Shown here piece by piece: positions 10,833 through 15,686 of a stretch of 22,202 nucleotides of DNA. How positions within the stretch are numbered: position 1 is the first letter of the stretch; every line of letters starts with the position of its first letter. The notes below the pieces were generated by a model. That model was not told the DNA's origin. It made no database searches and worked only from the letters and a program-made list of their open reading frames with translations. The stretch lies in assembly GCA_029259835.1 (NCBI GenBank), contig JAJDEL010000837.1:1-22202 (forward strand), read 5' to 3'. This DNA is from Planctomicrobium sp. (GTDB lineage Bacteria > Planctomycetota > Planctomycetia > Planctomycetales > Planctomycetaceae). A program made the position numbers and the translations under genes.

Positions 10833-11594
10833 ATGGCACAACTTTGGACCGAGAGAATTAAACAGGCGGTTCGGCCCCGAATTTACAAGACGCTGTTTCC
10901 GCATCGTCCACAATTTGATTGTCCAATTTGTGGTTACCACGGGCCATTCAAAGATAAAGTTGTCAGCAAAACCCCGTCTGTTGTTCGTGTTGATTCAAAG
11001 TGTCTCGGATGCTGTGCGGCGGAACGCCATCGCATGATGCACCTGACGATTCAAGAGGTCTTCGGCGATTGGGGGGCTGAGGAAAAATCACTGCTGCACA
11101 TTGCCCCTGAAGATTGCTTGAAACCGCAACTCAAGAGCCTGTTCGGGACTTACCATACCGCCGATTTGCTCCAGAAAAACGTCGACTTTAATGAAGACGT
11201 TCAGGCTTTATCTTTTGACGATGCGACATACGATGTGGTCCTGATTTCACGCGTTTTGACAATTCCCCCCGATTTGGAAGCGTGTATCCGAGAGATGCGG
11301 CGAGTGCTCAAGCCGGGTGGCATCGCAATGATCGCAGAAATCTACACGCACGAAAAAACCGTCGAGTTTGGAAAAATGGTCAACAGCCGGTCTCGTGAGA
11401 TCGGTGTCGATTTACTCTCAATGACGCAGCAGCACTTTCCGAAAGTCGACCAGTACCTATCGGATCGATACGACGATGAGTATCAATTGACGAATCAAAT
11501 CGTCCTCGATGGCAACCCTGCAAGCGACTATCCGGAATTAGTCCGAGTTCCAGACATCGGCTTCCTAGACCTCGTCGCCGTTTGTCATGCCTGA
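10833..11594 (+). CDS. Zinc-ribbon class I SAM methyltransferase
   Basis: A 253-residue protein. The N-terminus has a CxxC...CxxC zinc ribbon (C30, C33, C57, C60, in CPIC and CLGC), then AERHR (63-67) and HIAPE (89-93), the motif that replaces the classical motif I in this group. SFDDATYDVVLISRVL (127-142) and RRVLKPGG (156-163) are the later methyltransferase motifs. In relatives I recall, the same order (CPxCG, CxxC, ERHR, HxAPE) marks methyltransferases found in glycosyltransferase and exopolysaccharide clusters; the substrate is unknown. Chemistry is inferred from the fold. A GGAAGA lies about 12 bases before the ATG, which is weak. The downstream kinase-like gene follows within 51 bp, or overlaps if an upstream TTG is used. 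Confidence 0.78.
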   Translation: MAQLWTERIKQAVRPRIYKTLFPHRPQFDCPICGYHGPFKDKVVSKTPSVVRVDSKCLGCCAAERHRMMHLTIQEVFGDWGAEEKSLLHIAPEDCLKPQLKSLFGTYHTADLLQKNVDFNEDVQALSFDDATYDVVLISRVLTIPPDLEACIREMRRVLKPGGIAMIAEIYTHEKTVEFGKMVNSRSREIGVDLLSMTQQHFPKVDQYLSDRYDDEYQLTNQIVLDGNPASDYPELVRVPDIGFLDLVAVCHA

Positions 11595-11644
11595 GTCCAT
11601 TTTGCTACCGCGCTGTTATTGTCAATTCAAGAGTTCTTTTGGTC

Positions 11645-12454
11645 ATGTTATTCCTTCCCCTTCGGTGGCTCAAGCGACGATATCAGATCAATCTGATGTC
11701 GCCGCGCCGGCGCGAACTCGAACGCCTACTGACCGAAGCCTGGGAACAACCCATCCGGCTTGTTTCGGCATCAACCTCACAGAGCTACGACGAGATTTAT
11801 TATGCATCCGATCACAGCAAACGACTTGCAGTCGTTCGCGTGAATCGACCTGATTCGCCTCTTCCTGACCTCATCGGACCAGATGCACCCGGCGCTCCGC
11901 TCGATTCATCAGGGCGACTGAATATGGAATGGGAAACTTACTCGAAGCTTTCGCAAGTGAATCTCTCTCCAAAACCGCTCTGGAGAACCGACGATGCGAT
12001 TGCTTGTTCCTGGCTTCCGTGGGACCGAGCCTCTCGATATCTGGTGCGGCATCGGGATCGATTCTGGGAAGTGATGCAGTGCGTCATCCCGGCGATTCGA
12101 ATGATGCACGACCAGGGCGTGACACATCTCGATATGAATCTAGGAAACTTGCTGCTCAACCCAGATGGGAAAGGTGTTGCGTTCATCGATTTCGAGTTTG
12201 GTCCTGTCGATTGGGTCTCGCGAGAGCAGTTGATGGCTTTTGACTATTTACGACTCATCGCCGACTGCACGAAGCGTCGCCGAGGTGGAGACTATTTGCT
12301 CGCTGACCCAGAACGATTGCTCCCACTGCTCGATCAGAATGTTGAAGCCGAAGCACGTCTCGCCGATATGAGCTTTTCTCTAACGCAATTGCACCGCCTC
12401 ACCGAGCACCCGGAGTTGCAAAAGTCTCTAAGTTCTGTCTTTCGTGGGCTGTAA
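11645..12454 (+). CDS. WaaP/Kdo-kinase-like protein
   Basis: A 269-residue protein with the kinase signature of lipopolysaccharide and small-molecule kinases: THLDMNLGNLLL (160-171, catalytic D163, metal-binding N168) and AFIDFEFGP (179-187, D182 as DFE). The N-lobe is weakly conserved (possible ATP lysine at K59; E95 or E97 as helix C). WaaP and Kdo kinases phosphorylate heptose or Kdo of the LPS core, so a role in phosphorylating envelope sugars is plausible, but the target is not known. Start choice: the frame opens at TTG 11582, overlapping the methyltransferase stop by 13 bases. ATG 11645 is the first ATG, and ATG 11696 gives a shorter form. None has a strong ribosome-binding site. Confidence 0.7.
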   Translation: MLFLPLRWLKRRYQINLMSPRRRELERLLTEAWEQPIRLVSASTSQSYDEIYYASDHSKRLAVVRVNRPDSPLPDLIGPDAPGAPLDSSGRLNMEWETYSKLSQVNLSPKPLWRTDDAIACSWLPWDRASRYLVRHRDRFWEVMQCVIPAIRMMHDQGVTHLDMNLGNLLLNPDGKGVAFIDFEFGPVDWVSREQLMAFDYLRLIADCTKRRRGGDYLLADPERLLPLLDQNVEAEARLADMSFSLTQLHRLTEHPELQKSLSSVFRGL

Positions 12455-12455
12455 A

Positions 12456-12684
12456 TCCCCGAATCATTCGGTCGGTATCAGCCGCAAGGCGATTGCCCAA
12501 TGGGTATCTTCTTTGGAACTTCTCGCCATGAGCCGAACGCACTAGCGTCGGGAAATTTGCGAGAAAACGTGACTCGCGCAAGGTCCGAGGCTAGCGTCAA
12601 CGGCTCAAAAGTAGGCCTGTGGTTTACGAAGTAGACGGCATTGGGCTATCGCCCAAACGACTGATATCGGGAAACTATTCGGGA
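12456..12684. repeat. ~230-bp imperfect palindrome (long hairpin, MITE/REP-like)
   Basis: Left arm 12456-12551 and right arm 12585-12684 are inverted copies of each other along almost their full length. Outer blocks 12456-12502 and 12643-12684 pair as TCCCGAAT...TATCAG...CG...GGGCGATAGCCCAATG. Inner blocks 12530-12551 and 12585-12606 share GAGCCG...CTAGC...TCGG. The tip has TTGCGAG (12557-12563) against CTCGCGCAA (12573-12581). It fills the gap between two convergent genes and contains no ORF. The right arm matches the element at 14290-14332 closely. Confidence 0.8.
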
Positions 12685-12695
12685 CGATTTCTGAG

Positions 12696-14078
12696 TCAGG
12701 CCGCTTCCTGGAGACTCTCGGTATTCGGTTTGGCCTCTTCAAGCGGAGCCGTTTGTGTCACCTGCATGACATGAAAGATACCGCGCAAGGAACCCATTGC
12801 AGCGGTCAGTTCACCGTCATTGTTGAAAGCGACGTAATCCGTCGGGCAGCGGAACGCGAACTCCTGAAAAATGTCTTCGTCGTACTGATAATGACCTTTC
12901 GCAGTCACTTCCTGCTTCCGCTGCATAACGTTCTCGTGACTGACGATGCAGTGGACGTTGGGAACGCGGAGTCCAAAGAACTGAGTCAACCACAGAAATC
13001 GCGAGAAACTGGGTGAATCAGATTTTCGGTCAATGTACAGGAAGTCAATCAGTGATCTGTCGATCAAAGTGACGCGATTTGACTTTGGAAAAAGACGTAA
13101 CAATCGCAAACCGAGGCAGCCGCGCAGATAGACAAACGGTGCCAGGATTTCATCGAACCGTTCGCGATCCTGGAAAAGCAACGGACGGATGAAGATGACC
13201 GCTAGCTTGTAGCTCAACGATTTTCGATACAGATGCTTACCAGTGTACACTCTGCCGATCTCTTCCGAGTTCTCTTTCAAGGTGTGTGCGAGAGTCGTCT
13301 TCCCTGCCCCGTCGCAGCCCATCATTGTGAGCATTCGAGTTCGACGTGGCGGCCCCAGAAATTGAGCCTGTGCTTTCGCAATCAATCGATTGAAGCGTTC
13401 GTTCAATGATTGCGGAGTTGGCGAGCCAATTCGATCCTCAATAATCGATATGGTCTCACTCTCAGCCTCTGGCTGGATCGTTTTTGTTTCAATCATGGTG
13501 CGAATGATTTCGGAAAGTTTGAGATGATCTTCCGCTTCGCATTGAAAGGCGTACTTGGAAAGTCTTTGTAGAACTCGCTCGCTCGTTAGGTGTTTCTTTT
13601 TGCTGAGCAGATGTTGAATGTAGACGGCGGCTTCGACATCGACAGGCAACCGTTGAATCGATGGTTCGGAATCAATCACTGCGTGCGAACAAGCTTCGTA
13701 TGTGAGGCAACGTTGCCGATGATCAAACTGGCGCAGATTGATCCACAGGTCAAACAGGATCGAGTGACGACCATCGATGGAGAAGATCGTGAACTCAACT
13801 TTGTCTCGATTTCGATTTCGAACCCGAATGTGGCAGCGGCGCTCACGGACCCATCCCAACGCAGAATTGAGAAGCGCCTCGACTGAGTTTTGGCCTCCTA
13901 ACAAGTCGATGTCATCGTCAGGCAGGTTGGCAATGTCGAGACTTTGACCGCGAAGTTGAATGAATTTCCAGGGGCCTTTGCCGATAGCTTCGACGCACTC
14001 GACAAATCCAGATTGCGGAAGTTGAGATTGCGTGAACGGCTTGGCGTCGTTCTCAAGCTGTTGCATCCGTTCAACCAT
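12696..14078 (-). CDS. Nucleotidyltransferase-like + thymidylate-kinase-like fusion protein
   Basis: A 460-residue protein. The N-terminal half (about 20-200) has a DDDIDLL motif (54-60) with later acidic and aromatic residues (ILFDLW, 107-112), reminiscent of the nucleotidyltransferase (DxD) fold. The C-terminal half (about 245-430) is a P-loop kinase of the thymidylate-kinase type: Walker A GCDGAGKTT (254-262), DRS (340-342) in place of the DR(Y/F) motif, and a basic stretch near 387-389 (RKQ) that may act as the lid. Such two-part proteins occur near polysaccharide genes, possibly acting on sugar nucleotides or sugar phosphates. A role in DNA precursor synthesis is unlikely because the context and length do not fit Tmk. 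ATG 14078 is preferred because the ATG at 14108 lies inside a palindrome. A second methionine is at 14066. The reaction is unknown. Confidence 0.75.
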   Translation of the reverse strand: MVERMQQLENDAKPFTQSQLPQSGFVECVEAIGKGPWKFIQLRGQSLDIANLPDDDIDLLGGQNSVEALLNSALGWVRERRCHIRVRNRNRDKVEFTIFSIDGRHSILFDLWINLRQFDHRQRCLTYEACSHAVIDSEPSIQRLPVDVEAAVYIQHLLSKKKHLTSERVLQRLSKYAFQCEAEDHLKLSEIIRTMIETKTIQPEAESETISIIEDRIGSPTPQSLNERFNRLIAKAQAQFLGPPRRTRMLTMMGCDGAGKTTLAHTLKENSEEIGRVYTGKHLYRKSLSYKLAVIFIRPLLFQDRERFDEILAPFVYLRGCLGLRLLRLFPKSNRVTLIDRSLIDFLYIDRKSDSPSFSRFLWLTQFFGLRVPNVHCIVSHENVMQRKQEVTAKGHYQYDEDIFQEFAFRCPTDYVAFNNDGELTAAMGSLRGIFHVMQVTQTAPLEEAKPNTESLQEAA

Positions 14079-14099
14079 GAAAAAACTATGCTTAGGTTG

Positions 14100-14119
14100 G
14101 ACAGACATTCCTGTCTGTC
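14100..14119. repeat. 20-bp palindrome overlapping upstream start codon
   Basis: GACAGAC-ATTCCT-GTCTGTC forms a 7-bp perfect stem with a six-base loop. It overlaps the possible ATG at 14108 of the minus-strand fusion gene, which is one reason to prefer the internal start at 14078. It sits eight bases from the next palindrome. Confidence 0.65.
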
Positions 14120-14127
14120 TAAAAAAT

Positions 14128-14157
14128 GTAGGGTTCGCTCCGCGGAGCGGACCCTAC
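14128..14157. repeat. 30-bp near-perfect palindrome
   Basis: GTAGGGT-T-CGCTCCG followed at once by CGGAGCG-G-ACCCTAC is a 15-bp stem with no loop and a single T/G mismatch that would be a wobble pair in RNA. As DNA it could extrude as a cruciform. I recall similar sequences in other planctomycetes, but this needs a search. Confidence 0.7.
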
Positions 14158-14289
14158 TTGCCCATCTCCCTGTGTCAGACAGAGTTTTACAGATTTTTTT
14201 GCATTTTGGTCAACAGAAATTTGTATTAACAGGGCAAAAGTAGAGTGCCTTGCAATGCACGTCATGAAATTGTTTGCCCTATGGAACTC

Positions 14290-14400
14290 TCCCGAATTAG
14301 ATTCCCATTATCAGCCGTTTGGGCGCTAGCCCCCGATAAAACTCAGTTCACGCTCAGAACCGGGGTTGCGCCCTTCGGCTAATACAGGCCGAATCAACTC
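14290..14400. repeat. ~110-bp imperfect hairpin, same family as 12456-12684
   Basis: The first 43 bases (14290-14332) match the reverse complement of the right arm of the 12456-12684 element (12643-12684) with only a few substitutions, sharing TCCCGAAT, TTCCC, TATCAG and CGTTTGGGCG.TAGCCC. The downstream part (14354-14400) is an inverted, more diverged copy: its reverse complement reads TTAGCCGAAGGGCGCAACCC, against CAGCCGTTTGGGCGCTAGCC on the left. The element ends just short of the GlmU-like stop codon at 14415 and could also act as its transcription terminator. Confidence 0.7.
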
Positions 14401-14414
14401 GGTCATTTATGTTC

Positions 14415-15686
14415 CTAAGAGTGCATGTCGGCTTGACGCTGCAAAGCTGCCTGTCGTTCCGCTTGGGTTGCTTCGAATGTGTGCTGAATCAGGCGTTCCA
14501 TGGCAGGAGTCATTGACTGGTCACGCCGTCCCATTGCGTGACGGGCAGTTTGCAGGACGGATGTCGTTCCATCTGGGAGCGATTCAAGTCGACCATGCCA
14601 GAGACGACTGAATGGAGGAACATGCTTCGGGAGGAGTTCTCCTCCAGGCAGAATCAGGCATCCAGCACCGATTGAAGTGCCGGTATTTAGCATACTGCCG
14701 ATGGCTGTCTTTGTATGGTCGCCTATGAAGCAGCCGACTTTATTTGAATTGGTCTTAATACTGTTGCCTGTGAGCGGGACCGAGACGTTCGAATAGTCGT
14801 TTTTGAGATCACTGTTTGTTGTGAGAGCTCCCAGATTGACCCATGGGCAGACGTAACTGTGACCGAGAAAACCGTCGTGGTATTTGTTGGCATAGCCGTG
14901 AATAATGCTCTCTTCGATTTCGCCACCGACGCGGCAAACAGGCCCAATTGTCGTTCCTTCGCGGATATTCGCCCGAAATGTTTGGGACTCACGACCAATG
15001 TAAGCAGGCCCTTCGATTCGAGTGAACGCCTGAATTTTCGCCTTGGCATCGATGAAGATCGACCCATGCCGAGAATCAAGAACGACAAACGGATCAATGT
15101 CGGCAGTCGCATCGATGAAAACTCTCTCCGCCGGTCCGACGAGACCTGCGCTGGATGCCAATTTCTGCGAGTTGTCTTTGGCTCGCAGCGAGAAGTCTCG
15201 CTCTAACTGCTCTGCATTATTGGCGATGAGATCCCATGGGTAGTGCAACATTTTTCCTGAAGCAGGTACAGGCTTCTTCTGTTTGGCAATGTTGACCACA
15301 GCCTGCGAAAATGATTCGCCACTTCGATTGGGAAAATCTCCTGGCTCCACCAAGACCCAGGCAAGTTCATCCTCAACCCAGCCAGCATTGCCAGATTCGA
15401 TAATTTCAATTTTCTCAGGCGTCCCCAGCCAGCGTCCATTGATCAATAAAGTTGGATAACGGGCGAGCCATGCGTCCTCGTTGATGTGACATTTCGGGTG
15501 CTGTTCGTGATAAACATCCACAAATTCAGCGCGAAGAAACGCTCCCCAATCAGCGTCCGGATTTGAGGAGAGAAATCTCTCTCGCACCGAAGAAGCACCG
15601 CAAATCAACTCGAAAACCGGGCGCAATAGTGCCACTGGAGCAAAATTTCCAGCTTGGTGATCCTCAAAGAATGCGATCCGTCGCAT
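14415..15686 (-). CDS. Alternate GlmU: sugar-1-P nucleotidyltransferase/acyltransferase
   Basis: A 423-residue protein matching the alternate bacterial GlmU type (TIGR03991-like). The N-terminal domain (about 1-150) has RPVFELICGASSVRERF (22-38), the NTP-binding signature of this nucleotidyltransferase fold. The C-terminal part (about 190-390) is a left-handed beta-helix of hexapeptide repeats with the acyltransferase pocket KYHDGFLGHSYVCPWVNLGA and TTNSDLKNDYSNV. The family is thought to make UDP-GlcNAc from GlcN-1-P by acetylation and uridylylation, feeding peptidoglycan and surface glycans. A separate classical GlmU may exist elsewhere, so a specialised glycan role is possible. A strong GGAAGGA is directly upstream of ATG 15686. 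The basic and Gln-rich C-terminal tail (about 395-423) is an extra. Confidence 0.85.
   Translation of the reverse strand: MRRIAFFEDHQAGNFAPVALLRPVFELICGASSVRERFLSSNPDADWGAFLRAEFVDVYHEQHPKCHINEDAWLARYPTLLINGRWLGTPEKIEIIESGNAGWVEDELAWVLVEPGDFPNRSGESFSQAVVNIAKQKKPVPASGKMLHYPWDLIANNAEQLERDFSLRAKDNSQKLASSAGLVGPAERVFIDATADIDPFVVLDSRHGSIFIDAKAKIQAFTRIEGPAYIGRESQTFRANIREGTTIGPVCRVGGEIEESIIHGYANKYHDGFLGHSYVCPWVNLGALTTNSDLKNDYSNVSVPLTGNSIKTNSNKVGCFIGDHTKTAIGSMLNTGTSIGAGCLILPGGELLPKHVPPFSRLWHGRLESLPDGTTSVLQTARHAMGRRDQSMTPAMERLIQHTFEATQAERQAALQRQADMHS

Follow-up and report, generated by a model that had tools for sequence, protein, structure and literature searches.

What kind of element fills the gap between two genes that end facing each other is the question raised by this locus, which lies in a 22,202-nucleotide stretch of Planctomicrobium DNA (the whole of it hereafter referred to as the window). 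The gap measures 241 bp between the two convergent stop codons, and is bounded by the ORF 11582–12454 on the plus strand, encoding a kinase-like protein (Pfam APH), and by the ORF 12696–14108 on the minus strand, encoding a 470-amino acid protein with no Pfam match. A reading made from the letters by themselves (the sequence-only reading) had described an imperfect palindrome of ∼230 bp here, devoid of an ORF, and had listed a non-autonomous MITE/REP-like element, a structured RNA and a chromosome-organising site as candidates. The palindrome is borne out, and no listed ORF of 80 amino acids or more lies over it; the limits first given, 12456–12684, were roughly right, but the element reaches slightly further, from 12455 to 12691.

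When folded as RNA, positions 12440–12700 of the plus strand form one long imperfect hairpin, with a minimum free energy of −108.4 kcal/mol, compared to a mean of −80.9 kcal/mol (sd 4.95) for shuffled sequences (z −5.56). The minus strand gives a z of −6.18, and on either strand none of 200 shuffles is as stable as the palindrome. Folded as single-stranded DNA, positions 12455–12695 give a z of −3.99. As in the layout that had been proposed, the arms pair in an extended outer block, then in an inner one centred on GAGCCG..CGGCTC, and end in a hairpin at the tip.

Comparison with the other copies described below divides the window elements into the following parts:

12455–12691, no strand assigned: entire palindrome (type A), lacking part of its left end (fold and copy comparison).
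12455–12476, plus strand: remnant of the left terminal inverted repeat (TIR) arm (copies compared by eye).
12477–12498, plus strand: left outer REP, ATCAGCCG..GCCC, with its GCTAGC decayed (copy comparison and alignment).
12499–12529, plus strand: left arm of the inner element, AATGGGTATCTTCTTTGG.. (copy comparison).
12530–12551, plus strand: left inner REP, one base off the phylum-wide 22-mer (copy comparison and 22-mer search).
12556–12582, no strand assigned: tip hairpin (fold).
12585–12606, minus strand: right inner REP, inverted (copy comparison and REP pairing).
12607–12642, minus strand: right arm of the inner element (copy comparison).
12643–12665, minus strand: right outer REP, inverted (copy comparison and alignment).
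12666–12691, minus strand: right TIR arm, ..TTCGGGACGATTTC (copy comparison and TIR pattern).
12692–12694, no strand assigned: TGA adjoining the right end, a candidate half of a TNA duplication whose left partner is unreadable.
14283–14415, no strand assigned: second, simpler member, with TIRs around one outer-type REPIN and flanks TAT / TAA.

The second member was seen in a search that kept the best 40 of 105 candidates, and on the right it extends up to the stop codon of a GlmU-like ORF (14415–15686). Between it and the ORF of the 470-amino acid protein, positions 14128–14157 hold a short, perfect-looking hairpin (GTAGGGTTCGCTCCGCGGAGCGGACCCTAC), which matches itself when inverted.

The palindrome is a member of a dispersed repeat family. 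The genome is a draft of 6.0 Mb in 954 contigs, 82% complete. A search of it with the whole element returned 47 matched pieces in 40 places, the window included (the best 40 of 85 candidates), and the central 88 bases added 5 further places (the best 40 of 63 candidates), for a family of at least 45 places, that is, the window and at least 44 other sites. Modules are seen when the copies are set side by side. At the centre, a variable spacer separates two REP-like hairpins in inverted orientation, which is the design of a REPIN (two inverted REP hairpins, short spacer). In elements of ∼130 bp (type B), the REP centre lies between the TIRs GAACGTGTTTTGAAA. In the longer elements of the window kind (type A), it lies within inner arms (AATGGTATCTACTTTGG..), followed by outer REPs (ATCAGCCG..GGGCGCTAGCCC) and the TIRs GGAACTGTCCCGAA, so that the inner core is enclosed by two TIR types in this one genome. 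An 88-bp form (L204) has a single REP in the middle between TIRs. Among the 37 copies that could be located in the fetched stretches, 16 possess the A-type outer modules, 9 the B-type TIRs, 9 the inner arms only and 3 the core only. The six module patterns had between 0 and 37 matches in the controls with 1000 shuffles, the pattern for TIR A being the loosest; this pattern yielded 37 matches and its reversed control 2. Beside the core, the left flank of L016 and the downstream flank of L025 have an extra stretch in common (TTTTCCGCGGGCACAGGAAA..AGCAATCTGCTCTAG), perhaps a further module.

Terminal inverted repeats, by which a MITE is recognized, are present in many copies; the window copy is without its left end, where ∼20 terminal bases of the TIR are missing relative to the sister copies L012, L025 and L029. 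The sequence-only reading was right in substance when it proposed a non-autonomous MITE/REP-like element, as the palindrome is MITE-like on the outside and REPIN-like on the inside. I consider, with a probability of about 0.72, that the window palindrome belongs to a composite, non-autonomous kind of mobile element, of which it is a copy in partial decay. The convergent setting is true of the window copy, but is not typical of the family: by a crude ORF scan, 21 of the 37 copies lie between tandem genes and 8 between convergent ones, with 2 divergent, 2 overlapping an ORF and 4 unassigned, and convergent placement as a family rule is not supported.

The ends of the copies bear on how they were moved. 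Identical triplets on both sides point to a target duplication, whereas a TIR merely extended by symmetry would give reverse-complementary triplets. Across 19 TIR pairs extracted by script, some of which look spurious, the flanking triplets are identical in 7 (TAA three times, TTA twice, TCA and TGA), reverse-complementary in 1 and neither in 11. Identical triplets missed by the script were found by eye at L013, L029 and L035, bringing the 3-bp TNA duplication to ten copies. Flanking target-site duplications, which the sequence-only reading had suggested looking for, are present at some copies of the family, but cannot be read at the window copy, since the terminal bases of its left end are missing.

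A TNA target duplication is the rule of the IS1031 group in the IS5 family. As several of the better preserved copies show such a duplication, an IS5-like DDE transposase probably moved the TIR-bounded copies. The genome contains three PF01609 matches, and an inverted-repeat search around these revealed one intact IS5-family element (NCBIfam IS5_3), with TGA on both sides, but its TIRs differ from those of the palindrome family. None of the three matches is a DDE gene bounded by the family TIRs (GGAACTGTCCCG / GAACGTGTTTTGAAA ends). Twenty stretches around TIR matches were also fetched: reading the ORFs of three of these (L202, L203 and L210) showed no transposase, and the remaining 17 were scanned for TIRs and GCTAGC only.

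The same locus could be compared in two congeners. In G002 and G005 the same two genes are convergent, with the 470-amino acid protein at 76% and 56% identity respectively, and the gaps between them are 91 and 128 bp, without the palindrome; the other three congeners have no match to this protein. In G002 the C-terminus of the kinase (SLSSIFCGL, TAA) coincides with that in the window (SLSSVFRGL, TAA), which indicates that the palindrome did not supply the end of the protein. Both gaps are too diverged to align, and so to fix the insertion point or an exact empty site. Among the 59 genomes searched as relatives (this one included), matches to the window element are found in three, namely its own, G002 (13 matches) and G018 (one weak match), and are absent from four of the five congeners. 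The gap between the two stop codons is a place that tolerates an insertion.

The same observations bear on a different explanation, in which the palindrome is a selected RNA, or a bidirectional terminator serving the two convergent genes. The very stable fold on both strands and the convergent setting are what this would lead one to expect. However, an Rfam scan of the palindrome gave no match up to an E value of 1, no promoter-like site was seen in the element, and terminator-like sites (a short G+C hairpin followed by a T run) number 1, against 0.7 in shuffles, so that an intrinsic terminator is at chance level. In ten aligned copies, hand-picked by the analyst, pairing is maintained through a change of both bases in only 2 of the 44 predicted pairs of the long stem, with an unfavourable covariation term (+3.49). 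Given this near lack of compensatory change, the structured RNA that had been offered as a candidate is unlikely, and with the family so seldom convergent and two congeners lacking the palindrome between the same genes, I regard selection for an RNA or terminator function as very improbable. The long stem is most readily understood as the legacy of a mobile element that is palindromic and decays once inserted. The sequence-only reading had reserved the name of a chance or decayed structure for a palindrome with neither further copies nor conserved pairing; there are further copies, and pairing fails to be conserved in the long stem but is conserved in the REP hairpin.

A search for copies in related planctomycetes had been suggested as well, and for the inner REP such copies are plentiful. 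Public genomes contain the exact 22-mer GAGCCGAACGCGCTAGCGTCGG in no fewer than 104 stretches, with at least 25 accession prefixes, all planctomycetes by title except for one (L091), a contig titled as an Acidobacteria MAG, where transfer or misbinning may be at play. The REP folds as a hairpin, CCG-bulge-xxGC-GCTA-GCyy-CGG, in which the two free pairs are Watson-Crick in 208 of 234 distinct contexts, compared to a mean of 92 and a maximum of 108 in shuffles. Five fully paired types are represented (AC/GT, CG/CG, AG/CT, TG/CA and GG/CC), the AC/GT type with 135 cases, a number inflated by searching with that very 22-mer. In the listed copies the foot of the hairpin reads NTGA, and not the GT[AG]G of canonical REPINs; relative to the CnGA of class 3 enzymes, the first base is C in some copies only.

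Since some REPs bind host proteins, such exact conservation of a 22-mer in many planctomycete genomes could also be taken to mean that the element is a chromosome-organising or protein-binding site under selection. This I consider the least probable of the explanations, and scarcely credible: the window element has matches in only one of the five congeners, its copies are truncated and decayed, and the conservation of the REP is explained by its link to Y1 genes.

This link comes from other genomes. The window's own genome has four PF01797 matches, none with the REP motif beside it, and a protein search found no cognate Y1 gene in this 82% complete assembly, in G002 or in four further REP-carrying genomes. 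In G066, however, the REP flanks a Y1 (HUH) gene on both sides, in inverted orientation (L222, the same locus as L195). A search of 15 carrier genomes with the G066 protein found relatives in 9 and none in 6. Three of these are close relatives, with 59–72% identity over the matched part and an adjoining REP (L223, L224 and L227), so that the inner REP is found beside Y1 genes in four other genomes. At L223 and L224 the REP is present on both sides (at L223 as the exact 22-mer), and at L227 on the one side that the contig end allows. Four relatives at 39–48% identity lack a REP of the family type beside the gene by motif scan, two having a lone GCTAGC. L222 and L223 possess the motifs NHVH, WT and Y----Q, as expected for class 3 TnpA-Y1 proteins (NHVH, W[TA], Y----Q), and at L224 these are readable in part only, owing to masked bases; the motif read-out covers 25 of 37 Y1 loci. 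Planctomycetes, acidobacteria and proteobacteria are the main groups from which class 3 Y1 proteins have been described, and the 'atypical' hairpins that flank their genes can reach high copy numbers (Quentin et al., 2018, PMC6006769).

The outer REPs of the family have a counterpart in the congener G005, where a class 3-like Y1 gene (L245) is accompanied by three REPIN-like pairs of the outer type. Aligned to the sister elements L166 and L168, these score 46–52, with shuffle maxima of 22–26, two pairs through the whole REPIN and one through 27–28 bases. Scores against the simple copy at 14283–14415 are 30–32 (shuffle maxima 23–29), and against the window palindrome 24, 31 and 24 (shuffle maxima 29, 24 and 23), two of them at or only just above the shuffles. 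Because the decayed window palindrome scores so low, its link to the G005 Y1 gene rests mainly on the sister copies. With REPs of the same design flanking class 3-like Y1 genes elsewhere, including in a congener, it was probably an enzyme of this class that spread the REPINs.

Across 392 genomes of the phylum, a Y1 relative was found in 58, and GCTAGC lies near the Y1 gene in 8 of the 30 loci fetched. An inverted repeat of at least 15 bases on both sides of the gene is present in 17 of 26 class 3-like loci, compared to 0.2% of random places (26 of 30 loci tested, with L240, L242, L261 and L263 left out). For the other Y1 loci, of which 22 of 29 were tested, a repeat of at least 13 bases is found in 15 of 22, compared to 1% of random places. 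At least one of the long matches (L244) has the look of a duplication, not of a REP. Flanking hairpins of the class 3-like Y1 genes at L246, L247, L248, L249, L251, L253, L256 and L258 have loops GCAA, GTAA or GTGA, not GCTA; a G-N-N-A loop may be common to the REPs cognate to this family.

That planctomycete Y1 genes so often have inverted repeats on both sides raises the question of whether Y1 enzymes alone moved all the arms, the 'TIRs' included, as a pure REPIN/BIME product with no DDE transposase involved, comparable to the TIR-flanked tyrosine transposases termed 'TIRtrons' (PMC3733652). I judge this unlikely. Identical TNA triplets speak against it, as Y1 enzymes of the IS200/IS605 kind are not known to duplicate their target, and the REPINs beside the Y1 genes L195, L223, L224 and L245 have no TIR arms of the window family. 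In its favour, no DDE partner was found in this genome, and composites of REPs with unrelated palindromes have been reported from Pseudomonas (PMC3733652).

The composite origin of the window palindrome can be summarized as follows. From the outside in, the order of nesting is a MITE-like TIR arm, the outer REPIN, the inner REPIN and the tip hairpin. The outer arms represent the TIRs of a MITE-like element, probably moved by an IS5-like DDE transposase, and these enclose two nested REPINs, each an inverted REP pair, probably spread by a class 3-like Y1 enzyme. The series of forms suggests that the element probably grew by nesting, in which case a TIR element with a single REP (L204) would have given rise to TIRs around a REPIN (14283–14415), and then to TIRs and REPs around an element with the inner REPIN (12455–12691).

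These kinds of element are known, and their nested combination is unusual. The following likenesses and differences can be stated. REPINs or BIMEs with their RAYT (TnpA-REP) likewise consist of an inverted REP pair around a spacer, in many intergenic copies, with REPs beside HUH/Y1 genes elsewhere (PMC3116915, PMC6006769), but their foot is GT[AG]G and not NTGA, and here the REPIN sits inside TIR-bounded elements of a genome in which the cognate gene was not found. Class 3 TnpA-Y1 systems share the planctomycete host, the motifs seen at L222 and L223 and the hairpins on both sides of the gene, whereas the foot reported for them is CnGA, and nesting in MITEs is not mentioned in the portion available (PMC6006769). 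The composite TIRs of Pseudomonas, made of degenerate GTAG-1 REPs and unrelated palindromes, are similar in joining a REP to a palindrome in many copies; there, however, they flank tyrosine transposase genes, while in the present family it is the REPIN that occupies the middle (PMC3733652). In insertion sequences that use REPs as targets, one mobile element also enters the hairpin of another, but here both partners are devoid of genes and the product is itself repeated (PMC1525189). REPs have been noted for planctomycetes, including R. baltica (PMC3733652). The parts of the open literature available, subscription journals and supplements aside, hold no planctomycete MITE with a REPIN centre, and planctomycete names were not found in the text of PMC2817692. 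The palindrome family resembles IS5-family MITEs of the IS1031 group in its TIRs, its lack of coding capacity and the TNA duplications of ten copies, but differs in being a long, near-complete palindrome with a REPIN centre, and in that none of the three PF01609 matches of this genome proved to be an autonomous partner bounded by these TIRs.

The inner REP may have entered such company more than once. At 111 places in other genomes, I looked for inverted repeats flanking the REP. Of the 97 that could be tested (14 being too near an end), 36 exceed the 99% level of a null built from comparisons between genomes; these come from 9 of 23 genomes, 17 of them from a single one (JAHELS); a stricter version gives 28 of 53 places, after exclusion of 52 without a right half by pattern and 6 too near an end or duplicate. 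At the other 61 of the 97, the flanks do not rise above the null, and in this sample naked REPINs are commoner than TIR-flanked ones. The flanking arms were sorted into seven groups, some of which are alike, and type A has a look-alike in the TIR of Rhodopirellula sp. Ww632; judged by eye, there may be about four to six independent TIR types around the inner core. I therefore put forward, tentatively and as somewhat doubtful, that one REP module (GAGCCG..GCTAGC..CGG), tied to class 3-like Y1 enzymes, has repeatedly become the centre of unrelated TIR-bounded MITEs in planctomycetes, and that both the HUH single-strand and the DDE double-strand chemistries could move the resulting chimeras.

The prevailing view is that a REPIN depends on a RAYT of its own. 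If the chimeras are as proposed, genomes without the Y1 gene would keep spreading its REPs by the DDE route, and a REP enclosed by several TIR types, in genomes where a cognate Y1 was not detected, offers a natural test of REP spread by another transposase. The hairpin, its loop and its foot also provide a sequence handle on the little-studied class 3 Y1 proteins, and the composite design would account for other such palindromes between planctomycete genes. In two places the REP is found in direct tandem copies: at L224 (1130–1220) with a spacing of 37 bp, and at L073 (5494–5605) with a spacing of 90 bp for the whole REPIN unit.
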